11,467 nucleotides of DNA from contig DAOVUU010000031.1 of the NCBI GenBank assembly GCA_030632405.1, positions 1 through 11,467 on the forward strand, read 5' to 3'. Position 1 is the stretch's first letter; each line of letters starts with the position of its first letter. Under the pieces are notes generated by a model. The model worked only from the letters and a program-made list of their open reading frames with translations, ran no database searches and was not told the DNA's origin. Made by a program: the position numbers and the translations under genes. Positions 1 through 11,467 of this stretch are shown in pieces. The DNA is from Desulfobulbaceae bacterium (GTDB lineage: Bacteria; Desulfobacterota; Desulfobulbia; Desulfobulbales; Desulfocapsaceae).

Positions 1-400
1 GGACGCTCTCTACGGAGGGGAAATGTCCGCTCATCATTATTTTCGTGATTTTGGCTATTGTGACTCCGGAATGATCCCATGGCTGTTGATCGCCTCACTT
101 TTAAGTAAGAGCGGGGTAAAGCTCTCAGAACTGGTTGCCGACAGGATTGCAGCATTCCCTGTGTCGGGTGAGATAAATAATCGGGTTGGAGATCCGGATG
201 CTGTTATTGCCAGAATAGAAAAAGAGTATGGCGGAGGGAGTAAAGATTATACCGATGGTGTGAGCATTGCTTTCCCTGAATTTCGATTTAATATTCGTAA
301 ATCAAATACGGAACCGCTGCTGCGTCTCAATGTTGAAAGCAGGGGTGATGCGCAATTAATGAGGGAAAAGACAGAGGAAATACTCGGATTAATCAAATAA
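1..400 (+). CDS. manB: Phosphomannomutase, C-terminal part (5' end outside window)
   Basis: This enzyme interconverts mannose-6-phosphate and mannose-1-phosphate in the cytoplasm, feeding GDP-mannose synthesis. The reading frame is already open at base 2 and encodes DALYGGEMSAHHYF. That is the sugar-binding loop (GGE-M-S-AHH) of the alpha-D-phosphohexomutase family, so the ATG at 23 is internal and the true start lies upstream. The C-terminal phosphate-binding loop RKSNTEP (bases 296-316), followed by LLRLNVESRGD, closely matches the CpsG/ManB type; phosphoglucosamine mutases have a different loop. About 133 codons are present, covering the end of domain 3 and domain 4; the catalytic serine is out of view. 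The stop at 398-400 lies 10 bp before manC and overlaps its ribosome binding site, so the two are almost certainly co-transcribed. A bifunctional phosphoglucomutase activity cannot be excluded. Confidence 0.92.
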   Translation, partial: DALYGGEMSAHHYFRDFGYCDSGMIPWLLIASLLSKSGVKLSELVADRIAAFPVSGEINNRVGDPDAVIARIEKEYGGGSKDYTDGVSIAFPEFRFNIRKSNTEPLLRLNVESRGDAQLMREKTEEILGLIK

Positions 401-410
401 GAGGCTTAAT

Positions 411-1823
411 ATGAAAAAAATCCAACCAGTGATATTGGCGGGTGGCACAGGTTCCCGGTTGTGGCCGTTGTCCCGGGAGCTCTATCCCAAACAGCTGCTG
501 CAGTTAACCAACGATACTTCTCTTTTACAGACGACCCTGCTGCGGGTCGGGCAGCTGCCCGGTGTGCTGCCGCCGATTGTAGTTGTTGGTGAGGAACATA
601 GATTTATTACCAGAACACAGATAGATGATCTTGGCATTTTCGACGACTACTCTATTCTTCTGGAACCTATGGGCAGAAATACGGCACCGGCAATTTGTGC
701 AGCCGCTGAGTATTGCGGGGATCTGGAAGAAGAGACCATTCTCCTGGTTTTGCCGGCTGATCATATCATTTTGCATGGGGAAAAATTTACAGATGCCGTT
801 ATGCAGGCAGCCAATCTTGCAGCCGATGGATTTGTTGTCACCTTCGGTATACAGCCCACAAGTGCTGAAACAGGGTATGGATATATTGAGCGTGGGGAAG
901 GATTCCGGGTTGCCTCGTTCAAGGAAAAACCCGACCTCGAACTGGCCCGGAAATATTTGAGTGATAAAAAGTATTTCTGGAATAGCGGGATGTTTTCATT
1001 TTCCATTAAAACCTTTAAGGCCGAGATGCAGGTTCATTCCCCTGAAATGGCGGCAAGTATGGCCGATGCGGTAGAGAAAGGTGATGCAGACGGCCGTTTT
1101 TTTCGATTGGAAAAGTCGGCAATGTTGACCTGTCCCAGTGACTCGATTGATTATGCTTTGATGGAAAAAACGGCTAATGCGGCAATGGTCACTGCCGATC
1201 TGGGCTGGAGTGATATCGGCTCGTGGCGGGCATTGTGGGAGGTTCTGGAAAAAGATACGGCAGGAAATGCTGTGCGGGGAGATGTTATCCTGGAAGATAC
1301 CAGCAATTGTCTGGTGAGAGCGGGAGAGAAGCTGGTAGTAACAGTTGGCATGGAAGATACTCTTGTCGTTGAGACTGCCGACGCGGTACTTGTTGCTCCT
1401 CTGTCCAAATCACAGGATGTGAAGAAGGTGGTTACCCGGCTGAAAAAGGAAAACCGGAAAGAGTTCAGCCTGCATCGTACGGTCTATAGACCATGGGGAA
1501 GCTATTCAGTGCTGGAAGAACATCCGCGTTTTCAGATCAAGAGAATTTCGGTAAACCCCGGGGCTAAATTGTCCCTGCAGATGCATCATCACCGTCATGA
1601 ACATTGGGTGGTGGTAGCCGGTACTGCCAAGGTGACAAATGGGGATGAAGAGTTTTTGCTCTATGAAAACCAGTCTACATATATCCCTGCCGGAACTATG
1701 CATCGATTGGAAAATCCGGGTGTGATCTCTTTAGAACTCATTGAAGTGCAGAATGGCAGTTACCTCGGGGAGGATGATATCGTTCGGTTTGAAGATGTCT
1801 ATGGACGGAAGGAACAGGGGTAA
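411..1823 (+). CDS. manC: Mannose-1-phosphate guanylyltransferase / mannose-6-phosphate isomerase
   Basis: This 470-residue type II enzyme makes GDP-mannose from GTP and mannose-1-phosphate and usually also isomerises fructose-6-phosphate to mannose-6-phosphate. The N-terminal nucleotidyltransferase domain shows the pyrophosphorylase signature LAGGTGSRLWPLSR (residues 9-22) with PKQ at 26-28. It also has FKEKP at 170-174 and the sugar-binding YFWNSGMF at 188-195. The C-terminal cupin/isomerase domain starts near VYRPWGSY (about residue 357) and holds the metal-binding histidine cluster MHHHRHEHW (391-399), with PAGTMHRLENPG further on. The length matches the family (about 470). The start at 411 has a good AAGAGG Shine-Dalgarno at 399-404, overlapping the manB stop. 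It follows manB directly and supplies GDP-mannose for capsule, LPS or exopolysaccharide. No terminator is visible before the convergent pilZ gene, whose 3' end is 9 bp away. Confidence 0.96.
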   Translation: MKKIQPVILAGGTGSRLWPLSRELYPKQLLQLTNDTSLLQTTLLRVGQLPGVLPPIVVVGEEHRFITRTQIDDLGIFDDYSILLEPMGRNTAPAICAAAEYCGDLEEETILLVLPADHIILHGEKFTDAVMQAANLAADGFVVTFGIQPTSAETGYGYIERGEGFRVASFKEKPDLELARKYLSDKKYFWNSGMFSFSIKTFKAEMQVHSPEMAASMADAVEKGDADGRFFRLEKSAMLTCPSDSIDYALMEKTANAAMVTADLGWSDIGSWRALWEVLEKDTAGNAVRGDVILEDTSNCLVRAGEKLVVTVGMEDTLVVETADAVLVAPLSKSQDVKKVVTRLKKENRKEFSLHRTVYRPWGSYSVLEEHPRFQIKRISVNPGAKLSLQMHHHRHEHWVVVAGTAKVTNGDEEFLLYENQSTYIPAGTMHRLENPGVISLELIEVQNGSYLGEDDIVRFEDVYGRKEQG

Positions 1824-1832
1824 ATCGGCGAT

Positions 1833-2195
1833 TCACTGGTTTTCCAGTTCGGTTTTTCTCTGCCGGAAAGCCTCTACATATTTGGCAAATATCCGTCTGC
1901 CGTCTTTTGAGATTTTAAGAAAACCAACCCCAGAAATAAACCGGCCGTTATGGGGGGCTGTATGGGTTGTTTTCCCCTCCAGGTCTACCAGATCATCCTC
2001 CAGCCCCACAGTTATAAGGAGTCTGGTATCTACTTTGAGAGGGGAAGTCGTTTCCAGCTTTATACCGTCAATACTTACATCTATAGTTCTCCCCATGGAA
2101 TAATCACCTGTGTTTCCGTTTTCGTCGAGGGTAACGTAGTCAAGGAGATGCAGTGCATCATAGCGGATGAATCTTCTCTGTTCTGTCTGTTTCAT
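1833..2195 (-). CDS. Small PilZ-domain protein (probable c-di-GMP receptor)
   Basis: This 120-residue cytoplasmic protein consists almost only of a PilZ domain, which binds the second messenger cyclic di-GMP. Both ligand motifs are visible: RxxxR as R7-R8-F-I-R11 near the N-terminus, and DxSxxG as D39-V-S41-I-D-G44. They are followed by the usual beta-barrel pattern (IKLET, LLITVGL, GRFISGVGFLKI). No catalytic or membrane segment is attached, so it is a stand-alone adaptor whose partner is unknown. The start at 2195 is supported by AGGAA at 2201-2205, five bases upstream. It converges on manC with only 9 bp between the stop codons. Because PilZ proteins often control exopolysaccharide and motility, the neighbourhood is suggestive, but the opposite strand means it is not in the manBC operon. 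Domain assignment is firm; the physiological output is unknown. Confidence 0.85.
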   Translation of the reverse strand: MKQTEQRRFIRYDALHLLDYVTLDENGNTGDYSMGRTIDVSIDGIKLETTSPLKVDTRLLITVGLEDDLVDLEGKTTHTAPHNGRFISGVGFLKISKDGRRIFAKYVEAFRQRKTELENQ

Positions 2196-2244
2196 AGTAT
2201 TTCCTGTTTATTTACTTAATTGATGGCGTTGTAAAAAGTCTAAG

Positions 2245-2259
2245 GCGGGCGATGCCCGC
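2245..2259 (-). terminator. Possible intrinsic terminator of the MtnA-like gene
   Basis: GCGGGC and GCCCGC form a perfect 6-bp GC-only stem around a 3-base loop. Read on the minus strand, the stem is followed after seven bases by five T residues (2233-2237). It lies downstream of the minus-strand isomerase gene and upstream of the minus-strand pilZ gene. The gap before the T run is longer than ideal, so this could instead be part of a small interspersed repeat. Confidence 0.35.
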
Positions 2260-2274
2260 AATTCAGGTTAATTA

Positions 2275-2345
2275 GGCTGTAGGCTGAAGGCTGTTAGGAA
2301 AAGCAAAAGACGGAGTGAAAACCTCCCCTAATAGCCTTCAGCCTA
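2275..2345. repeat. Long imperfect inverted repeat (hairpin) in intergenic DNA
   Basis: The 19-base arms at 2280-2298 and 2327-2345 are reverse complements with a single mismatch (G versus A), separated by 28 bases. The left arm is extended by direct repeats of GGCTG (GGCTGTAGGCTGAAGGCTG). This long stem sits between the 3' end of the MtnA-like gene and the start of pilZ. No T run follows the arm on either strand, so a simple terminator is unlikely. A related GGCTGCAGGCTG block occurs at 8496-8507. It may belong to an interspersed palindromic repeat family or a tiny non-autonomous element; this is inference. Confidence 0.6.
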
Positions 2346-2428
2346 AACAACCTGTTGATTTAACATAATGAACTTAAGACAATATCCTTGTTTTTTATGA
2401 CAGAAACAGGGGAATAAGGTACTAAGTA

Positions 2429-3541
2429 TCACTTTATCCTCGATGCCTCGGGAAAAAGCCGATGAATCGCTTCCCGCTCCGCCTTTACTATTCCCCGTTC
2501 CGTAATAAGTCCGGTAATCAACCGTGCCGGGGTAACATCAAAACTGTAGTTTACAGCTCTGGTTCCTTCTGCAGCTAATCCAACTGTCGTAATATCACCT
2601 TTGGCATCGAGACCCGAGATAGTTGTGATTTCTTCCCCTGATCTCTGTTCTATCGGAATTTGCATCCCATTGTCAAGGGTCCAGTCGAAGGTTGATGACG
2701 GGAGCGCCACGTAAAATGGAATATTATTGTCATGTGCGGCCAGTGCCTTCAGGTAGGTTCCGATCTTATTTGCGACATCACCGGTATGGGTTGTTCGGTC
2801 TGTACCGACAATAACAAGGTCAACCATGCCGTGTTGCATGAGGTGACCGCCGGCATTGTCAGTGATGAGGGTGTTGGCAATGTTCTCCTGCTGGAGCTCC
2901 CAGGCGGTGAGTTTGGCACCCTGATTCCAGGGTCGCGTTTCGTCAACCCATACATGGACGTCTATCCCCGCATCCCGTGCCGCATAGATCGGTGCGGTGG
3001 CACTGCCATAGTCCACAAACGCCAGCCATCCCGCATTGCAATGGGTGAGAATATTAACGGAGCGGCCATTTTTTTCTGCGCTGATCTTTTTGATAATCTT
3101 AAGGCCATGCGTGCCGAGTTTTTTACAAAACGATGCATCTTCATCCGCTATGATGCAGGCAGTTGAGAAGGCAATGTGTCTTTTTTCTGCAGGTGTGTCT
3201 GCCTCTGCCATATCTGACGATACCCGGTCGATTGCCCACTTCAGGTTTCTGGCCGTCGGCCTGCTGTTGTTGAGTCTGGTACCGGCTTCTTTCATGAAAT
3301 CAGCAAAGCCATTATCCGGTGCCTGCAGAGATGCGAGATACATTCCGAATCCCGCTGTGGCTCCAATGAGGCCGGCACCGCGAACATGCATATCCTTGAT
3401 GGCAGCAACAGTTTGCTCAACACTGCTGAGCCGTTCCGTCACAAAATCATGGGGGAGTCTGCGCTGGTCTATAATGCAGATAGTCTGGTCATCTCGTGGG
3501 TCCGGCCAGATAGTTCTATACCGGTTTCCATTTACATTCAT
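2429..3541 (-). CDS. MtnA-family sugar-1-phosphate isomerase (methylthioribose-1-phosphate isomerase-like)
   Basis: This 370-residue protein belongs to the aldose-ketose isomerase branch of the eIF2B-alpha/MtnA family. The family's classic member converts 5-methylthioribose-1-phosphate to methylthioribulose-1-phosphate in methionine salvage. Conserved blocks are ILTHCNAGWLAF with the catalytic cysteine (C168), DETRP (200-204), LTAWEL, LITDNAGGHLM, and VGTDR with the catalytic aspartate (D248), then GDVANKIGTY and PFYVALPSSTFDW. It differs from canonical MtnA at the phosphate-site loop, which reads RGAGLIG rather than RGAPAIG, and at GTDR rather than GADR. The start at 3541 is chosen because a GGA lies about seven bases upstream and family similarity begins here. 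An in-frame ATG at 3601 would add 20 unconserved residues without a ribosome binding site. No other methionine-salvage gene is adjacent, so the substrate could equally be 5-deoxyribose-1-phosphate or a similar pentose phosphate. Confidence 0.85.
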   Translation of the reverse strand: MNVNGNRYRTIWPDPRDDQTICIIDQRRLPHDFVTERLSSVEQTVAAIKDMHVRGAGLIGATAGFGMYLASLQAPDNGFADFMKEAGTRLNNSRPTARNLKWAIDRVSSDMAEADTPAEKRHIAFSTACIIADEDASFCKKLGTHGLKIIKKISAEKNGRSVNILTHCNAGWLAFVDYGSATAPIYAARDAGIDVHVWVDETRPWNQGAKLTAWELQQENIANTLITDNAGGHLMQHGMVDLVIVGTDRTTHTGDVANKIGTYLKALAAHDNNIPFYVALPSSTFDWTLDNGMQIPIEQRSGEEITTISGLDAKGDITTVGLAAEGTRAVNYSFDVTPARLITGLITERGIVKAEREAIHRLFPEASRIK

Positions 3542-3684
3542 AATATTCCGTGATTGTTGGCGAAAGTACAAACTTTCCTGCTGAACCAGTGCAATAATCA
3601 TACACGCTTAGGTTGAAAATGTAAATGTGTACAGGTGATAAAGGCGGTTGGAAAAAATTGTGAATCATTTTGAGTTTCGTAAGA

Positions 3685-3690
3685 TATAAT
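3685..3690 (+). promoter_or_regulatory. Candidate -10 element upstream of glnD
   Basis: A perfect TATAAT lies 65 bases before the glnD start, in the 154-200 bp region between the divergent isomerase gene and glnD. No good -35 box lies 16-18 bases upstream; the nearest, TTGTGA at 3658-3663, is 21 bases away. The element is plausible but not proven. No terminator is visible in this divergent spacer. Confidence 0.4.
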
Positions 3691-3755
3691 GTACAAAAAT
3701 GTGTTAAATATGGATCAGCGGAATAAGATTTTTAATAAAAAAAGGCTAAGATGCG

Positions 3756-6344
3756 GTGCAGTCGATGATTGAGAAATTTCGTGAAGAAAAGGCGGGGCTG
3801 GAAGAGATGTGGCGGAAAGGAAAGGCCGGGATTGACCCGCTTCGTCTGTACAGCGACCTTGTGGACAGGTTTCTTGTTGATCGTTTTCAAGAGATTGCTG
3901 CGGAAGATGAAGATACGTCTGTTACACTTGTGGCCCTGGGTGGTTACGGTCGGCAGGAGCTTTTCCCCCGTTCGGATATTGACCTGATGATTCTCTATCA
4001 TCCTGAATATAAAGGAGTCAGCAAAGTCGCAGATGGTATTCTCTACCCTCTGTGGGACACTGGCCTTGAGGTGGGTCACGGTGTGCGGAGTGTAGAAGAG
4101 TCTGTAGACCAGGCACGGGAGGATTATTTTTTTCGAGTAGCACTGCTGGATGCCCGTCTGATATGCGGCTCCCTGGATTTGTTTGAAGAGTTGCAGGATA
4201 CGTACTGGAATCGATTTGTTGACGGGCGCCGAGAAGAATTTGTGGTTGAGATGAAAGTTCACCGTAATGCCCGCCGGGAACGGTTCGGTACCCATAGCTA
4301 TCTCCTTGAGCCTAATATTAAAGAGGGCCGGGGGGGGATGCGGGACATTCAGGCCATGTTCTGGACGGCGCGGGTTGTATTTGGTTTGAGTGGACTGGAG
4401 GATATGTGCAGTGCCGGCCTGCTGCTTGAAGAGGAGAAAAAAGATTTCATTGCGGGCATGGAAATGCTGGTTCGTATTCGAAACTATCTGCATTGCCTCA
4501 GTAAGCGAAAAAATGATCAGCTCTATTTTGAACAGCAGGAGGATGCGGCAGAGGCACTGGGCTATAGTGCTGAAAATGGTGTGCTTGCCGTGGAAAGTTT
4601 TATGCGCGAGGTGTATGGTAGTCTGCAGAATATTGCTGTTATCACTGATCTTTTTTTTGATCATGTTGATGAGGTGCTTGGCCTTGTAAGCCGGGATGGC
4701 GTGGAGAATGTGGACAAGGTCGTTGAAAAAGGGGTTGAGATCCTCAAGGAAAAAGTTCATCTTGCAGCTCAAATTGATCAGCTGCAGGAGAAGCCGCATA
4801 CTCTTGTTCGCCTGTTTCTTGTAATGGCCCGAACCGGACTTTCCCTGCATTACAGAACTCGGAAAATACTTCCTGGATACCTTTACCTCATAGATAATAA
4901 AGTACGCGCTTCTCCCAGGCTTGCAAAATCCTTTTTCAGTATTTTGCTGGAGGCGCAGGATGTTTTTTCAGTACTGGAGACGATGCTCGAAACCGGACTG
5001 CTGCCCGCGTGTATCCCTGAATTTTCGCGCATTATTACACTCGCCCAATATGATGTGTACCATATCTATACCGTGGATCGTCACTCGCTTCAGACTGTGG
5101 CGGAGGTGACCCGGCTGACAGGTGAGATGGAGAGGAGTTTTGGCAATGTGAAATCGCTGAAGGTTCTCTATCTTGGAGCTCTTCTGCATGATATTGGTAA
5201 GGGGGCGGGGCGGGATCATTCTATCGAAGGAGCCAAGATAGCTGTTGTTGCAGGGAGGCGGCTTGGCTTAAGTGAGGTGGAATGTGAGTCTCTTGATTTT
5301 CTTGTCAGGCTGCATCTCTTTATTCCTGAAAACGCACTGCGAAGAGATTTAAATGATGTTCTTTTTATCAAGAGATGTGCTGAAACTATCGGAGATATAG
5401 ATCGGTTGTCAATGCTGTACATTCTCTCCGTGGCTGATTCAAAAGCCACCGGGCCGTCTGCCTGGAGCGAATGGAAGGCAGCTCTGATGGAAGAACTCTA
5501 TTTAAAGATATACTCGCATCTTGATCATGGTGGAGCCGTGGATGGTGCAGAGTTTGAAGAGCATGTTGAGCAGGGAGTTGAGTGGCTGCGGGAACAGGTT
5601 GGTGAGTTGCTTGAGGGAGAGCAAAATATAAGGGTCGATGTGGCCACACTTTCTCCAGATTATATGCTTTCCTTTGCACCTGATGCCATCGTCCGGCATA
5701 TACTGAGCCATCGGGATAATTATCAACTTCTGCGGCAAAAGTCGCTGCTCAGGGTTGATGAAAGTGATGATTGTTGGTCTTTGCTGCTCATGGCCTCTGA
5801 TCGCCCTGGATTGCTGGCAAAAATTTGCGGGGTGATGGCACTGAATAATCTCTATGTGGTCAGGGCGCAGATTTTTACCTGGGAAGACGGTACTGTTGTT
5901 GATGTGATTGACGTGAGGCCCACGGATGGATTGACTTTTACTGAAAAAGACTGGCAGGGTCTGGGTGGTGATCTGGACAAGGCTATTTGCCACAGGTTGG
6001 GGCTCGGTCACCGGCTATACAAAAAATTATCTTCTACATATGATCAGAGGCGGGAAATCGCAGGAGAGGTGGCAACCAAAGTAGTGATTGATAATAAAAG
6101 TTCAGATGCGTATTCGGTAATTGAGGTCTATTCGGCTGACGAACCGGGGCAACTTTATCGTATTACCCAGATGCTGGCTGACTTTGGTATGAATATTCAT
6201 AAGGCCTATATTGCCACAGAAGTTGGACAACTTATTGATATATTTTATTTAGTTGATGGCCAGGGTGAGAAGCTGGTCGACGAGGAACTCCAGCAGGAAG
6301 TCACTCAGGGGCTGCTCTATTCTGTGGATCACTCTGTAGGTTAG
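3756..6344 (+). CDS. glnD: [Protein-PII] uridylyltransferase / uridylyl-removing enzyme GlnD
   Basis: GlnD is the cytoplasmic glutamine sensor that uridylylates PII proteins when glutamine is low and removes UMP when it is high. At 862 residues it is close to the usual 850-900. The nucleotidyltransferase motif GGYGRQELFPRSDIDL (residues 62-77) carries metal-binding D74 and D76. The GlnD linker motif GRGGMRDIQ follows. The HD hydrolase domain shows LHDIGKG with H478-D479. Two C-terminal ACT glutamine-binding domains begin near SDRPGLL (D682) and ADEPGQL (E796). The start is taken as GTG 3756, with AAGG at 3742-3745; an in-frame ATG at 3765 is an alternative that would remove three residues. 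It lies 148 bp upstream of glnA. No glnB/PII gene is in view, so its substrate is encoded elsewhere. Confidence 0.95.
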   Translation: MQSMIEKFREEKAGLEEMWRKGKAGIDPLRLYSDLVDRFLVDRFQEIAAEDEDTSVTLVALGGYGRQELFPRSDIDLMILYHPEYKGVSKVADGILYPLWDTGLEVGHGVRSVEESVDQAREDYFFRVALLDARLICGSLDLFEELQDTYWNRFVDGRREEFVVEMKVHRNARRERFGTHSYLLEPNIKEGRGGMRDIQAMFWTARVVFGLSGLEDMCSAGLLLEEEKKDFIAGMEMLVRIRNYLHCLSKRKNDQLYFEQQEDAAEALGYSAENGVLAVESFMREVYGSLQNIAVITDLFFDHVDEVLGLVSRDGVENVDKVVEKGVEILKEKVHLAAQIDQLQEKPHTLVRLFLVMARTGLSLHYRTRKILPGYLYLIDNKVRASPRLAKSFFSILLEAQDVFSVLETMLETGLLPACIPEFSRIITLAQYDVYHIYTVDRHSLQTVAEVTRLTGEMERSFGNVKSLKVLYLGALLHDIGKGAGRDHSIEGAKIAVVAGRRLGLSEVECESLDFLVRLHLFIPENALRRDLNDVLFIKRCAETIGDIDRLSMLYILSVADSKATGPSAWSEWKAALMEELYLKIYSHLDHGGAVDGAEFEEHVEQGVEWLREQVGELLEGEQNIRVDVATLSPDYMLSFAPDAIVRHILSHRDNYQLLRQKSLLRVDESDDCWSLLLMASDRPGLLAKICGVMALNNLYVVRAQIFTWEDGTVVDVIDVRPTDGLTFTEKDWQGLGGDLDKAICHRLGLGHRLYKKLSSTYDQRREIAGEVATKVVIDNKSSDAYSVIEVYSADEPGQLYRITQMLADFGMNIHKAYIATEVGQLIDIFYLVDGQGEKLVDEELQQEVTQGLLYSVDHSVG

Positions 6345-6390
6345 GCAGTAAGCAAAAATGACAAACATGTAATAAAAATCCATTTGTCTG

Positions 6391-6418
6391 TTGCATAAAA
6401 TTTCAAAATTGTTATCTT
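6391..6418 (+). promoter_or_regulatory. Weak candidate sigma-70-type promoter of glnA
   Basis: The glnD-glnA spacer holds TTGCAT (6391-6396) and TATCTT (6413-6418) separated by 16 bases. Each is only a partial match to consensus. No terminator separates glnD from glnA, so read-through from glnD is equally possible. I found no GG-N10-GC sigma-54 pattern in this spacer. Confidence 0.25.
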
Positions 6419-6492
6419 GGGGGAAGTTGGGTTGAGGCGTGTGAAATTAACAACGGGAAAATTTGGTTTGACTGAAAAGGAGACTGTGTAAA

Positions 6493-7821
6493 ATGACAAG
6501 AGAAGAAATATTGAAAATAATTGAAGAAGAAAATATCAGATTTTTTCGCCTTCAATTTGTAGATATTCTTGGTTTTATGAAAAATGTTGCTATTCCCAGG
6601 AGCCAGATAGGTAAAGCTCTGGATGGTGATATGATGTTTGATGGTTCGTCGATTGACGGCTTTGTGCGCATTGATGAATCTGATATGTATCTTAAGCCGG
6701 ACTATAATACTTTTACGGTTCTCCCCTGGAGAAATAAGGATGGCGTAGCTGCTGCACGTATAATCTGCGATGTGTATAAGGCAGATGGGACGCCTTTTTC
6801 GGGGTGCCCGCGGGTCAATCTAAAGCGCGTTTTAGCTGAGGCAAAAGAGTTGGGATACACTATGAATGTCGGGACCGAGGCTGAGTTTTTTCTCTTTGAA
6901 AAGGCTGCTGACGGTACACCTACTACAATTACCAATGATGTCGCAGGGTATTTTTCACTTGATCCTGACGATATGGCCAACGATTGTCGCCGTGAGATTA
7001 TCGAGGTGCTTGAACTGATGGGATTTGAGATTGAAGCATCCCATCATGAGGTTGCGGAAGGACAGCATGAGATTAATTTTAAATATTCAGATGCACTCGA
7101 AGCGGCAGATAATACAGTAACTTTCAAATGGGTAGTAAAATCAATTGCGTCTAAATACAATTTACACGCCACCTTTATGCCTAAACCTATTTTTGGTGTT
7201 AATGGATCGGGGATGCATACCAATCAGTCTCTCTTTAATCTTGATGGTACCAATGCGTTTTTTAATGAGAGTGATGGCTTGCAACTTTCAAAGGTGGCTT
7301 ATTCGTATATTGCCGGATGCTTGAAAAATGCCCGTGGTTTTGCTGCGGTTACAAATCCACTGGTTAACTCATATAAAAGACTTGTCCCTGGATATGAAGC
7401 ACCTGTCTATGCGGCATGGTCTGCTTCAAACCGCTCAGCTCTGATCCGAATTCCTGCTGCCCGCGGTCTATCCACACGTACGGAAATTCGTTGTCCCGAT
7501 CCAGCCGCTAATCCGTATCTGGCACTTGCCATGATGCTGGCCTCCGGCCTTGACGGTGTGACGAATAATCTTACGCCACCTCCCGAGGTTGCAAGGGATA
7601 TTTTTAAAATGACTGCGGCTGAAATGGAAGAAGAGGGTATAAGTGTTATGCCTGGAAATCTGATGGAGGCCATTGAAGAATTGAAGGCTAGTCCGATTGC
7701 TAAAGATACCCTTGGAGAGCATATTTTCGAGAAATATATCATAGCAAAAGAAAGAGAATGGGATAGTTTTAGAACTGCAGTAACTGACTGGGAACTTAAA
7801 GAGTATCTCACAGCCTACTGA
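6493..7821 (+). CDS. glnA: Glutamine synthetase type I-alpha
   Basis: This enzyme makes glutamine from glutamate, ammonia and ATP. The 442 residues are full length for the short GSI-alpha class (about 444 in Bacillus); GSI-beta enzymes are about 470. Visible motifs are DGSSIDGF (50-57), GTEAEFFLF with an active-site glutamate, [11 protein letters not shown] (N237-H242), the glutamate-flap loop LVPGYEAP (E302), and NRSALIRIP with substrate-binding arginines. The 25-residue GSI-beta insertion is absent, and the adenylylation site NLYDLP is replaced by DIFKMT with F371 at the tyrosine position. Control by GlnE-type adenylylation is therefore not expected. R59 in GFVRIDESD matches the arginine linked to glutamine feedback in Bacillus GlnA, suggesting allosteric inhibition. 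The start has AAAGGAGA at about 6475-6483. The gene ends in a strong terminator, and glnD lies upstream. Confidence 0.97.
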
Positions 7822-7854
7822 TCAGTTCTTATCTCAAAATAAGAGGTGCAGTTT

Positions 7855-7887
7855 ACCCGCATGCCTTTGTAAGGTATGCGGGTTTTT
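7855..7887 (+). terminator. Intrinsic terminator of glnA
   Basis: CCCGCATGCC (7856-7865) pairs with GGTATGCGGG (7873-7882) through ten pairs including one wobble, extended by A7855-T7883. The loop is seven bases, and TTTTT follows directly at 7883-7887. It lies 33 bases after the glnA stop and cleanly separates the nitrogen genes from the next unit. Confidence 0.9.
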
Positions 7888-8008
7888 CGTTTCAGTCGTT
7901 TACAGCAACAATTCTTGCCAATTTTTTTATTTCTCAGTAGTGTCTATTATTGCATTTTTCTGCTCCGTTGTTGAATAGTTGTTAACTTTATGTATTTGGT
8001 TATTTGAA

Positions 8009-8488
8009 ATGGACTGGCTTAAAAAAAAGAAAGCGAAAGTTATAGCTGGAGTTTTGCCGACCCTTATGCGTGAACGGGGATGGGAAAAGCAACTTGATCT
8101 TCATTCCATCTTCCCGCGCTGGCCTGAACTTGCAGGCAAAGAGGTAAGCGACCATGCCCAGCCGCTGAAGATTGTCCGCGGTACTCTGTGGCTGGAGGTT
8201 GAAAACTCTTCCTGGTTACAGCACCTGCAATATCAGAAATTTGAGTTGTTGGATATTCTCAACCAGTCCCTTCGGATGAGCAGACTTTCTGATATTAAAA
8301 TGGTTTTGCCAGTTAAGAAAAAGGAGAGCGGGCAGAGACCTGGTCGTTCTGTGAGTTTTGTCAGCCCGGATGAGAAAAAAATTGCAGCTTTTGAGCAGCA
8401 GTTAAGCTGTATTGCGGATGAAAAGTGCAGGGAAGCGCTGATGCAGTTCTGGTATCTGTCACAGGCATGCAAGGTTGATGAACAATAA
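8009..8488 (+). CDS. DUF721 / DciA-like protein
   Basis: This 159-residue cytoplasmic protein carries the DUF721 pattern. The core (about residues 33-100) reads IFPRWPELAGKEVSDHAQPLKIVRGTLWLEVENSSW followed by LQYQKFELLDILNQ, which is typical of the family (W-x-E-hydrophobic-x-G, a P-x-x-hydrophobic segment, then G-x-L-x-V and an SxW). DciA, the studied member, loads the replicative helicase DnaB in bacteria lacking DnaC. The C-terminal 55 residues are charged and not conserved in any way I recognise. The ATG at 8009 is chosen because the conserved, lysine-rich start MDWLKKKK begins there; a TTG at 7979 would add ten hydrophobic residues. Neither start has a clear ribosome binding site. It follows the glnA terminator and precedes the cysteine fusion gene by 50 bp. 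Whether it really loads helicase is unknown. Confidence 0.75.
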   Translation: MDWLKKKKAKVIAGVLPTLMRERGWEKQLDLHSIFPRWPELAGKEVSDHAQPLKIVRGTLWLEVENSSWLQHLQYQKFELLDILNQSLRMSRLSDIKMVLPVKKKESGQRPGRSVSFVSPDEKKIAAFEQQLSCIADEKCREALMQFWYLSQACKVDEQ

Positions 8489-8494
8489 ATAAAG

Positions 8495-8523
8495 AGGCTG
8501 CAGGCTGGCAGCCTGACCCCCCC
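8495..8523 (+). repeat. Short hairpin plus C7 run before the CysK-CysRS gene
   Basis: AGGCTG (8495-8500) and CAGCCT (8509-8514) form a 6-bp stem with an 8-base loop, followed by GA and seven C residues (8517-8523). There is no T run, so it is not a standard terminator. The GGCTGCAGGCTG segment is 11/12 identical to a segment in the inverted repeat at 2275-2286. The only purine-rich ribosome-binding-like sequence upstream of the next gene (AAAGAGG, 8491-8497) lies partly inside this stem. Confidence 0.45.
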
Positions 8524-8538
8524 AAAACAATTAAAACA

Positions 8539-10866
8539 ATGTTACACAAAAATATTCTGAGTGTCATAGGTCATACTCCGCTCGTACGCATTAATCGTCT
8601 CTTTCAGAGTGATACCGTTGAAATGTACGGTAAGCTCGAGTCGTCTAATCCCGGTGGTTCCGTTAAAGAGAGAATTTCCCTTTCCATGATAGAGGCGGGG
8701 GAGGCTGGCGGAGAGTTGACAGCGGACAAAATTGTACTCGAAGCTACCAGTGGGAATACGGGTATCGGCCTGGCAATGGTCTGTGCAGCGAAGGGATATC
8801 GCTGTGTTCTGGTAATGCCTGAATCTGCATCTGTGGAACGGCGGAAAATTATGCAGGCCTATGGCGCTGAAATTCTTCTAACCCCGGCCAAAAGGTCGAC
8901 CGATGGGGCGATAGAGAAAGCGTATGCCATGGCCAGGGAGTTTCCTGACAGGTATTTTCTTACCGATCAGTTTAATAATAAGGCAAACTGGCGAGCACAT
9001 TACGATAAGACTTCGCCTGAGATATGGGAGCAGACCGAAGGAAGGGTAACCCATTTGGTGGCCACCCTGGGCACTTCGGGGACAGTTATGGGGCTCTGTG
9101 CCTGGTTTAATGAATTTCAGCCCCATGTGAAAATTATTGCAGTGGAGCCCCATCTGGGACATAAAATCCAGGGACTTAAAAACATGAAGGAGTCGTATAA
9201 ACCTGAAATATTTGATAAAAAAATCCCGGATGTAGTGGTGTCAATTGATGATGAACCTGCTTTCTCAATGGCTAGAAGTCTTGCAAGTCAGGAAGGTATA
9301 TTAGTGGGGATGAGCAGCGGCGCGGCAATGTCAGCTGCAATCAATTACAGTGAAAAAATGGAGAGCGGCCTGGTGGTTGTCATGTTCCCTGATGGTGGGG
9401 AACGTTACTTGAGTACACCGCTTTTTATTCCTTCAAAAAAGAAAGAGAAGAAGAATCAGCTCTTTTTTTACAACACCATGAGCAAGAAAAAGGAGTTGTT
9501 TGTTCCTCAGCAGGAGGGGCGGGTAACTTTCTATTCCTGCGGGCCGACTGCATATGAGTCTGCCGATTTACAGATTTGTCGCAGGTTTATTGTTTCTGAC
9601 CTTATTACACGTGCTATAGAGGCTAAGGGATATCAGGTCGATTCATATATGAATTTCACCGATATTGATGACAGGACAATTGCAGGTGCTGAAAAGGCAG
9701 GTCAGCCGCTGGCGGAGTTTACTCAGGGATATATTGACAGTTTCATTGAAGATATTGATTCCCTTGGTGTCAAGCGGGCAAAGGTATATCCGAAAGCGTC
9801 TGAATATATACCCGATATGATTGAAATGTCCCACGAGCTTATGCATAAGGGATTTGCCTATGAAAAGCATGGGTCTATCTATTTTGATATCTCAAAGTTT
9901 AAAAAATATGGCAGACTTTCCGGTATTGACCTGGGAAAAATCCAGCTTGGAAAGACTGTTGATCTGGACAACTATGAAAAAGACAATCCCCGGGATTTTA
10001 CTCTGCTGAAGCGGTCGACTCTTGGAGAGTTGAAGAAGGGGATTTTCTACGAGACCGACTGGGATAGTGTGAGCGGCTTCTTTCATGGGCTGTTTGCTGC
10101 CATGGCCACCAGGAACATCGGACCCACAATGGATATCCATACCTCCAGCAGGGATCTCATCTTCCCGCATCATGAGAATGAAATTGCGGTTGCTGAAGCC
10201 TTGACAGGCAAGCCTCTGGCCAACTACTGGCTTCACTCCGAGCTGGTTGTGGTCGATTCCAGGAAGATGTCCAGAGAGGCGGAAAACAGGATCACCCTTA
10301 AAGATCTGATTAGCAGGGGCTATACTGCTCGTGAAGTGAGGTTTATGCTTCTCTCTGTGCATTATAGAAAACCGTTGAATTTTTCCTATAAAAGGCTGGA
10401 GAGTGTACGCACTGCACTCAGGCGACTGGATGAGTTCACCTGCAAGTTGAATTGTCTACCTCCGGGGATACCGCATCCAGAAGTGGCGGTCTTCGTATCA
10501 ACCATGGAAAAGCAGTTTTTTGAGGCTATGGATGATGATCTCAATGTTTCTAAGGGAATGAGCGGGGTATACAATTTTATCCGGAAAGTGAATCCTATCC
10601 TTCATGTGAATCACCTCGATAAGGATCAAAAATCTTATATCCTGGAAAGTTTAAATAAAATTAACCGGGTGCTCAATATTTTCCGATTGAGTGGGTGCCC
10701 ACTCGCGCCTGATGTTAATGACCTTATCAAACGCCGGGAAGAGGCCAGATTGAACATGGACTGGCAGGCCGCTGATGCAGCCCGGAGTGAGTTGGCGAGA
10801 AAGGGGATAACTGTGATAGACACGGAAAATGGAACCATATGGAGACGAACCCGGGAGGGCGAGTAG
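8539..10866 (+). CDS. Fusion of cysteine synthase (CysK/CysM type) with a degenerate cysteinyl-tRNA-synthetase-like domain
   Basis: This is one uninterrupted 775-residue protein. Residues 1 to about 300 are a complete fold-type II PLP enzyme: IGHTPLVRINRL, NPGGSVKER with Schiff-base lysine K43, substrate loop TSGNTG (70-75), phosphate loop GTSGT (178-182), SSGAA (259-263) and PDGGERYLS (284-292). It should make cysteine from an activated serine and sulfide. A lysine-rich linker (about 301-309) joins a CysRS-like domain of free-standing length. That domain keeps CGPT (C334), FTDIDDRTI, DFTLLKR, FPHHENE (H544, E548), YWLHSELVVVDSRKMS and HYRKPLNF. It lacks HIGH (D343-L-Q-I346 instead), has KMSRE (576-580) rather than KMSKS, and has F519 where a zinc-binding cysteine is expected. 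ATG 8539 is the first possible start after the upstream in-frame stop, but it has no Shine-Dalgarno. Aminoacylation looks unlikely; the role of the second half is unknown. Confidence 0.9.
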   Translation: MLHKNILSVIGHTPLVRINRLFQSDTVEMYGKLESSNPGGSVKERISLSMIEAGEAGGELTADKIVLEATSGNTGIGLAMVCAAKGYRCVLVMPESASVERRKIMQAYGAEILLTPAKRSTDGAIEKAYAMAREFPDRYFLTDQFNNKANWRAHYDKTSPEIWEQTEGRVTHLVATLGTSGTVMGLCAWFNEFQPHVKIIAVEPHLGHKIQGLKNMKESYKPEIFDKKIPDVVVSIDDEPAFSMARSLASQEGILVGMSSGAAMSAAINYSEKMESGLVVVMFPDGGERYLSTPLFIPSKKKEKKNQLFFYNTMSKKKELFVPQQEGRVTFYSCGPTAYESADLQICRRFIVSDLITRAIEAKGYQVDSYMNFTDIDDRTIAGAEKAGQPLAEFTQGYIDSFIEDIDSLGVKRAKVYPKASEYIPDMIEMSHELMHKGFAYEKHGSIYFDISKFKKYGRLSGIDLGKIQLGKTVDLDNYEKDNPRDFTLLKRSTLGELKKGIFYETDWDSVSGFFHGLFAAMATRNIGPTMDIHTSSRDLIFPHHENEIAVAEALTGKPLANYWLHSELVVVDSRKMSREAENRITLKDLISRGYTAREVRFMLLSVHYRKPLNFSYKRLESVRTALRRLDEFTCKLNCLPPGIPHPEVAVFVSTMEKQFFEAMDDDLNVSKGMSGVYNFIRKVNPILHVNHLDKDQKSYILESLNKINRVLNIFRLSGCPLAPDVNDLIKRREEARLNMDWQAADAARSELARKGITVIDTENGTIWRRTREGE

Positions 10867-10882
10867 GGTTCCCGGGGTTGCC

Positions 10883-10903
10883 ATGCAAATGGAGTTGCAT
10901 TTT
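10883..10903 (+). terminator. Weak terminator-like hairpin after the fusion gene
   Basis: ATGCAA and TTGCAT form a perfect 6-bp stem with a 6-base loop, followed by TTT, 17 bases after the stop codon. The stem is AT-rich and the T run short, so termination would be weak at best. The rest of the gap up to the tRNA (10904-11020) holds nothing else I can support. Confidence 0.3.
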
Positions 10904-11020
10904 GCTTAACTTTGGTTATAGTGTCGACCGTGATTGTGAAATACTTCCAGGGAGCAGGAAGAGTAGGTTACCTGGATATATTGCATATTAAAGCGGTTAA
11001 TCAAAATAATGAATAAGAGT

Positions 11021-11097
<77 letters not shown>

Positions 11098-11105
11098 ATA
11101 AAAAC

Positions 11106-11139
11106 AAGCCTTTAACTCAAATAGAGCTAAGGGCTTTTT
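11106..11139 (+). terminator. Intrinsic terminator of tRNA-Arg
   Basis: AAGCCTTTAACTC (11106-11118) pairs with GAGCTAAGGGCTT (11124-11136) over 13 positions with one wobble and one A-C mismatch. The loop is five bases, and a T run covers 11135-11139. It starts nine bases after the encoded CCA of the tRNA. Confidence 0.85.
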
Positions 11140-11211
11140 CGTTTGGTCAGTAGTATGTCAGTAATCTCGTTGCCTTTTTTTTACCCATTATATCTTTTGC
11201 AGTCCCCTTTT

Positions 11212-11226
11212 AGTCATACTATGACT
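11212..11226. promoter_or_regulatory. Perfect 15-base palindrome, possible operator
   Basis: AGTCATA-C-TATGACT is perfectly symmetrical around a central C, in the 285-bp gene-free stretch between the tRNA terminator and the toxin-like gene. Its length and AT-rich character suit a dimeric DNA-binding protein, but no promoter is recognisable next to it. The function is unknown. Confidence 0.3.
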
Positions 11227-11275
11227 TTTAGTTAATATGTAAACTGGCGACTGCTTTTGTGAGGGCCAATGGGGA

Positions 11276-11313
11276 GGGAAGGGTATTCCCCCAAGTAAGT
11301 CCCCTTCCTTTTT
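11276..11313 (+). terminator. Possible terminator-like stem in the tRNA-toxin spacer
   Basis: GGAAGGG (11277-11283) pairs with CCCTTCC (11302-11308) across an 18-base loop, followed by TTTTT (11309-11313). The large loop and lack of an obvious upstream gene make the role uncertain. It may end read-through transcription before the toxin promoter. Confidence 0.3.
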
Positions 11314-11346
11314 CTCAAATGTGAAATATCCAGCAGGGCGTATCGC

Positions 11347-11373
11347 TTGACATATAGCGCGGTACGTTATACG
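11347..11373 (+). promoter_or_regulatory. Promoter with overlapping inverted-repeat operator for the toxin-like gene
   Basis: A perfect -35 box TTGACA (11347-11352) is followed after 15 bases by TATACG (11368-11373), a partial -10. Between and across them lies an imperfect palindrome, TATAGCG (11353-11359) and CGTTATA (11365-11371), matching at six of seven positions. This arrangement is typical of toxin-antitoxin operons, where the antitoxin or complex represses its own promoter. The ATG follows nine bases after the -10 box, so any leader would be very short. Confidence 0.6.
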
Positions 11374-11382
11374 GTGTGGATT

Positions 11383-11467
11383 ATGATCAAGAGTTATAAA
11401 AATTCCAAAACCGAACGGGTTCACCTTGCCGGTACTCCTAAGGGTTTTAAAGGGTTGGATGGTGCAA
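11383..11467 (+). CDS. HigB/RelE-type toxin, N-terminal fragment (runs off window)
   Basis: Only the first 28 codons are in the window. The protein begins MIKSYKNSKTERVHLAG and continues with a basic segment (TPKGFKGLDGA). The pattern M-I-x-S-aromatic-x-x-x-x-T-E, then a basic segment and F-x-G-L-D, matches the start of HigB-like toxins of the RelE/ParE superfamily, which are ribosome-dependent mRNA interferases. A strong -35, a partial -10 and an overlapping inverted repeat directly upstream support an autoregulated toxin-antitoxin operon, with toxin first and a HigA-type antitoxin expected just downstream. There is no clear Shine-Dalgarno (GTGTGG only). With so few residues, family membership is likely but not certain. 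Catalytic residues and the antitoxin gene are outside the window. Confidence 0.6.
   Translation, partial: MIKSYKNSKTERVHLAGTPKGFKGLDGA

Follow-up and report, generated by a model that had tools for sequence, protein, structure and literature searches.

A cysteine synthase fused to a cysteinyl-tRNA synthetase-like half with eroded adenylation motifs in Desulfobacterota: a possible sensor of tRNA-Cys

We describe a gene fusion found in the Desulfobulbaceae bacterium assembly GCA_030632405.1, within a stretch of 11,467 nucleotides (contig DAOVUU010000031.1, positions 1 to 11,467 of the forward strand, hereafter the window), in which a CysM-type cysteine synthase is joined in a single open reading frame (ORF) to a half resembling cysteinyl-tRNA synthetase (CysRS). 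Comparison of fusion sequences from across the phylum Desulfobacterota established that the adenylation motifs of the CysRS-like half are eroded, that the pyridoxal 5'-phosphate (PLP) site of the synthase and the anticodon-reading residues are kept, and that a canonical cysS and, in most cases, a separate cysK accompany the fusion. A search of the open-access literature returned no description of this fusion.

The explanation we favour, to which we assign a probability of roughly 0.4, is that the protein is an auxiliary CysM-type cysteine synthase tuned by its CysRS-derived module, which senses tRNA-Cys and perhaps cysteine as well. The module would have lost, or would be losing, ATP-dependent adenylation; it would recognise tRNA-Cys through the GCA anticodon; and its zinc-based cysteine pocket would persist in most lineages. 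Binding of tRNA-Cys, uncharged or charged and perhaps with cysteine, would then alter how active the attached PLP enzyme is, and a fall in tRNA-Cys charging would lead to cysteine being made from sulfide. That the module binds tRNA, no longer charges it and controls the synthase is inferred; the covalent link to a cysteine-making enzyme also counts for sensing. The HisRS-like domain of GCN2, an inactive synthetase domain through which a eukaryotic protein kinase senses uncharged tRNA, serves only as a model for how the fusion might work.

Such a protein would couple amino-acid synthesis to tRNA status in one polypeptide, with no need for transcriptional switching of the T-box kind, in a phylum rich in sulfide producers. 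The broad version of the proposal, that it is an enzyme-level bacterial sensor of tRNA charging in which tRNA-Cys on a decayed module directly sets synthase activity throughout the phylum, we regard as doubtful.

Fusion architecture and the adenylation motifs

The fusion protein matches PF00291, PF01406, PF09190 and PF23493, and exceeds the cut-offs both of the whole-length CysRS profile TIGR00435 (365.4 bits, cut-off 340) and of the cysteine synthase model TIGR01136 (356.6-360.3 bits, cut-off 344.15). The synthase half carries the PLP lysine and substrate loop expected of a cysteine synthase, and K43, S71-G75 and D285 are present in all 96 of the fusions compared across the phylum. It differs from CysM and CysK in carrying the CysRS-like half and in reaching the cut-off of neither the cysM nor the cysK equivalog model; its best equivalog score is for cysM (TIGR01138, 344.2 bits, cut-off 394.2). 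Mean identity is higher in the synthase half (0.65) than in the CysRS-like core (0.55). The predicted structure of the fusion has a predicted template-modelling score (pTM) of 0.59, with a predicted local distance difference test score (pLDDT) below 50 at residues 210-218 and 300-303, the latter in a short linker between the halves near residue 300; the cysteine and ATP pockets were assessed from sequence. The loop at 210-218, HKIQGLKNM, combines conserved letters with this low model confidence, and we take it to be the region where CysM enzymes shape substrate choice.

The original prediction held that HIGH, GGG and KMSKS of the CysRS-like half had become DLQI, TSS and KMSRE while the surrounding blocks CGPT, TDIDD, FPHHENE and HYRKPLN remained, and all of this proved correct, as did its statement that the KIIK motif after TDIDD is gone (the window reads RTIA). 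Among the best 120 homologues (window included; hereafter the near relatives), all of which contain both halves among the matches listed, residue 343 is N in 89, D in 24 and never H; residue 346 is H in seven and never N; and the KMSKS site varies, 116 of the sequences having an acidic residue at 580. The changes at all three motifs are thus traits of the family, which relatives share in varying form.

For a wider comparison, the 96 fusions were aligned with 76 non-fused CysRS, an unbalanced sample consisting of L002, E. coli CysS and loci picked for their resemblance to the fusion; 97 columns are conserved in 90% or more of this non-fused set. Mean retention in the fusions is 0.40, 0.48 and 0.47 for HIGH, GGGxD and KMSKS (ten columns in all), as against 0.92 for the four zinc ligands, 0.97 for ten columns of the anticodon domain, and 0.83 (median 0.97) for the remaining 73. 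Eight of these 73, at E. coli positions 33, 115, 168, 184, 194, 201, 210 and 241, are kept in fewer than half of the fusions. Four of the eight (168, 184, 201 and 241, fusion residues 473, 490, 511 and 551) are fixed as R, W, G and Q, respectively, in non-fused CysRS and swapped in nearly every fusion, mostly with T for R, L or F for W, V for G and I for Q.

Some groups have HLGN or HLGL at the HIGH site, others have N(L/I)(G/S/A)H, and the family of the window has NLSL or DLQI, a pattern whose letters indicate graded erosion rather than simple loss. On the tree, at least 14 changes are needed at KMS and seven at H37. Since the module decays stepwise from lineage to lineage, the family offers a natural series of a synthetase turning into something else.

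These data bear on whether the module could be an active if unusual synthetase, in which the fused synthase passes new cysteine to a CysRS-like domain whose charging of tRNA-Cys is slow or confined to special conditions. The score against TIGR00435 and the retained anticodon residues are in keeping with this, and five fusions (L141, L143, L145, L183 and L011) retain HLGN together with KMSRS. One or both motifs are gone in most others, however: HxG[HN] occurs in 8/96 fusions, KMS[KR][ST] in 21/96 and the two together in those five, whereas the KMSKS site is unrecognisable in L008, L010 and L174. Given also that 158 of the 164 fusion-bearing genomes encode a canonical CysRS, we consider this explanation quite unlikely.

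A role as a cysteine ligase or a persulfide enzyme, of the MshC or CARS kind, is far less probable still. MshC, which ligates cysteine in mycothiol synthesis, keeps its adenylation motifs; where these are gone, as in the window, the earlier suggestion that the fusion might ligate cysteine to a small molecule is unlikely, and the protein scores 152.3 bits against the MshC model TIGR03447, whose cut-off is 485.1. The companion suggestion of persulfide chemistry finds no support: the KIIK lysines are not kept, the first being K in 35/96 fusions and the fourth in 8/96.

Anticodon-reading residues and the zinc site

The anticodon-binding domain of the fusions is otherwise variable (mean pairwise identity 0.44), and eight of its columns are nevertheless kept at 95% or more: R423, R427, A435, D436, R439, L442, G446 and D451 in E. 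coli numbering. Among the residues that read the anticodon, R423, D436 and D451 (the last of which we take to be a tRNA contact) are present in all 96 fusions and R427 in 93, and position 432 is always W, F or Y. The fewest changes on the tree are none for R423, none for the aromatic residue at 432, and three for the set R427, D436 and D451 (K replaces R at 427 in three sequences). These residues, which the original prediction did not mention, rank with the best-kept positions of the protein. In the 1u0b complex, G34 of tRNA-Cys is held by R427 and D436 and has W432 stacked on it, and R423 belongs to the water network of this base (PMC12684709). The retention of these residues, which extends to all six fusions without a zinc Cys, argues that the CysRS-like half still reads tRNA-Cys.

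This selective conservation within a variable domain is hard to square with a second alternative, in which the CysRS-like half is a ligand-free structural or assembly domain of the synthase. The lineage-dependent differences in motifs and zinc ligands, and the short low-confidence linker, would suit a scaffold; overall we judge it improbable.

The zinc site has a more mixed history. The full set of four ligands is present in 73/96 fusions, and the losses fall on Glu238 (22), Cys28 (6) and Cys209 (3), requiring at least five changes on the tree; the Trp205 column is W in 93/96. Six loci (L173, L176, L179, L187, L188 and L189) have lost a zinc Cys together with the adenylation motifs and kept the anticodon-reading residues.

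The persistence of this pocket in most lineages, alongside eroded adenylation motifs, is what would be expected if the CysRS-like half bound free cysteine at the zinc site and adjusted the synthase with no role for tRNA. The precedent is HisZ, a separate subunit with a class II fold; the fusion is class I, covalently joined and equipped with an anticodon domain, and the covalent join to the synthase is no more than consistent with regulation of this kind. According to the accessible portion of PMC9437257, HisZ is a HisRS paralogue that lacks adenylation, is tied to synthesis of its cognate amino acid, as we propose for the fusion, and mediates histidine feedback. Set against cysteine feedback of this type are the loss of zinc ligands in several lineages whose proteins keep the anticodon contacts, the ordinary separate cysK found in 72/78 genomes of the window's order, and the alignment with MshC, which ends at model residue 716 and is thus without the anticodon domain that the fusion keeps. 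We therefore hold feedback by cysteine alone to be unlikely, although a cysteine sensor role as such, raised in the original prediction, is possible.

Three of the four zinc ligands are present in the window itself, and the fourth falls within a stretch, residues 509-519, that is private to it. The earlier claims that the zinc Cys and the pocket Trp had been lost hold for the window, where both are Phe (the Trp column being 515 and not 514), and fail for the family: Cys519 and Trp515 are kept in 118 of the 119 other near relatives, the remaining one being gapped there, and F at both positions is found in the window alone. The argument from zinc loss fails because it rests on this private stretch. 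Of the 66 positions at which the window's protein departs from its nearest relative, P0002 (91% identical), nine lie in residues 509-519 and none in the flanking 426-508 or 520-574. A single frameshift was rejected as the cause: the other two frames of 10021-10128 contain stops, and neither resembles RPSWHVEC. No second copy of the stretch was found in the genome, where one 14-base chance match occurs. A pLDDT of 76 for the block 511-520 decides nothing on the cause of the anomaly. The stretch is possibly a local assembly error or a private change, and in either case gives no basis for inferring function.

Table 1. Features of the fusion gene and its surroundings in the window (coordinates are positions in the window)
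Feature	Position	Strand	Remarks
Fusion gene, cysteine synthase + CysRS-like	8539..10866	+	One open frame, 775 aa
CysM-type cysteine synthase half, residues 1-297, PLP Lys43	8539..9429	+	
CysRS-like half, residues 308-770	9460..10848	+	
CGPT, zinc ligand Cys334 (E. coli Cys28)	9538..9549	+	C in 120/120 near relatives, 90/96 phylum-wide
DLQI (343-346), replacing HIGH	9565..9576	+	
Private anomalous stretch, residues 509-519, F515 + F519 in place of pocket Trp + zinc Cys	10063..10095	+	
TSS (535-537), replacing GGG	10141..10149	+	T[S/A]S in 119/120
HHENE (544-548), zinc ligands His544, Glu548	10168..10182	+	FPHHENEI in 120/120 near relatives; H 96/96, E 74/96
KMSRE (576-580), replacing KMSKS	10264..10278	+	
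Anticodon-binding domain, residues 722-770	10702..10848	+	PF23493
R733, R737, W742, D746, R749, D761			E. coli R423, R427, W432, D436, R439, D451
tRNA-Arg(TCT)	11021-11097		

Distribution, descent and known relatives

A second, canonical cysS, which the original prediction had proposed to look for, is present in the window's genome (421 contigs, 72.7% complete, 3.65% contaminated) on another contig, C62, and has HIGH, WHIEC, GGGKDL and KMSKS. Its product has its best match among 78 genomes, at 73% identity, in the CysRS of a different member of the same family, and therefore fits the lineage of the window. The fusion occurs in 71 of the 78 genomes of the order (five as partial matches), 64 of which also have a canonical CysRS (one partial), and in 164/394 genomes and 105/248 genera of the phylum. 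A canonical CysRS (match <=1e-100) accompanies it in 158 of the 164, the exceptions being G096, G167, G192, G213, G379 and G448; congeners of G448 (G419 and G433) have both, so a draft gap is likely there. The earlier reading of the gene as a repurposed synthetase paralogue under selection gains support from the canonical copies and from the maintenance of the fusion across the phylum. One draft genome of the order, G006, carries two fusion copies (C204 and C76), and a canonical CysRS was not found in it.

No dedicated search was made beyond the phylum; of 80 listed public loci, six match both halves, each with a title naming Desulfobacterota or Deltaproteobacteria, and the other 74 match the CysRS half alone. 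Named listings of the fusion call it cysteine--tRNA ligase or cysteinyl-tRNA synthetase despite the eroded adenylation motifs, which points to wide misannotation in genomes that usually have a canonical CysRS elsewhere.

The fusions form one clade (FastTree, support 100), whose sister group is made up of 34 non-fused CysRS (from Bathyarchaeota, Acidobacteria and other phyla) and does not include the canonical CysRS of the window's genome. Compared with CysRS itself (TIGR00435; E. coli CysS, 1li5/1u0b), the fusion half shares domains and fold throughout, the anticodon residues and, in the 73 fusions noted above, the zinc ligands, and differs in its eroded motifs, the attached synthase and the canonical enzyme usually alongside. 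The consulted text of PMC9437257 names MshC and CysRS* as the known CysRS paralogues and describes both as active. MshC is, like the fusion half, a paralogue with the same catalytic fold and a role outside translation; CysRS*, also a non-canonical paralogue from related bacteria (some Desulfobacterales), charges SelC* and is described there as having no anticodon-binding domain, whereas the fusion has PF23493 and eroded motifs. Judged by its motifs, the fusion is the mirror image of these two, with the anticodon domain kept and catalysis apparently eroded.

A standalone cysK-type match (36-50% identity) is listed in the 72 genomes of the order mentioned above, and for that reason the fusion as sole cysteine synthase, a plain HisZ analogue, was set aside. 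In 43 of these 72 the standalone synthase lies within 1.7 kb of a cysE match, a count in which genes near contig ends can be missed and every cysE match scores below the curated cut-off of its model. In the window's genome, at 72.7% completeness, neither a standalone cysK (E<=1e-40) nor a cysE (E<=1e-30) was found, so the rejection does not extend to that genome.

Several observations weigh against sensing of tRNA-Cys by the module. The 76 non-fused CysRS keep the anticodon residues to about the same degree (R427: 69 R, 7 K), and a role in folding is therefore possible for them. Some fusions have a shortened C-terminus (e.g. L162, L164 and L178), and in the single-contig genome G011 (C1:2736760-2738535, L130) the match stops at residue 595. 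The five near-canonical fusions may still charge tRNA. At the pTM obtained, the model gives no confident arrangement of the two halves relative to each other. Furthermore, seven of the 78 genomes of the order are without the fusion, and no operon partner conserved across the phylum was found in 45 loci (fusion ORF called in 44). With regard to G011, its C-terminal domains look lost or diverged.

Genomic neighbourhood and library matches

One feature of the neighbourhood we count for sensing: in five of the 45 loci (L122, L125, L126, L128 and L131, all of the window's order) dsrMKJOP precedes the fusion on the same strand, with a distance from dsrP of about 155-167 bases in three and about 1.3 kb in two. 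Across the 394 genomes, 143 have both the fusion and DsrK, 21 the fusion only, 62 DsrK only and 168 neither, a suggestive co-occurrence (Fisher p 2e-34, uncorrected for kinship).

In the 25 sources scanned for tRNA genes, no tRNA-Cys was found near the fusion gene. The sole Rfam match at gathering score in the window is the tRNA listed in Table 1, with no RNA switch detected. The PADLOC defence library gave no match; in a phage library, the two halves are matched by two families whose function is unknown, and the C-terminus has a weak match to a third. In the window, dciA lies 50 bases upstream of the fusion gene and tRNA-Arg(TCT) downstream. A dciA-like ORF is upstream in 12/45 loci, all of the same order, and tRNA-Arg(TCT) is near the fusion gene in 17 of the 25 sources, a neighbourhood conserved within the order.
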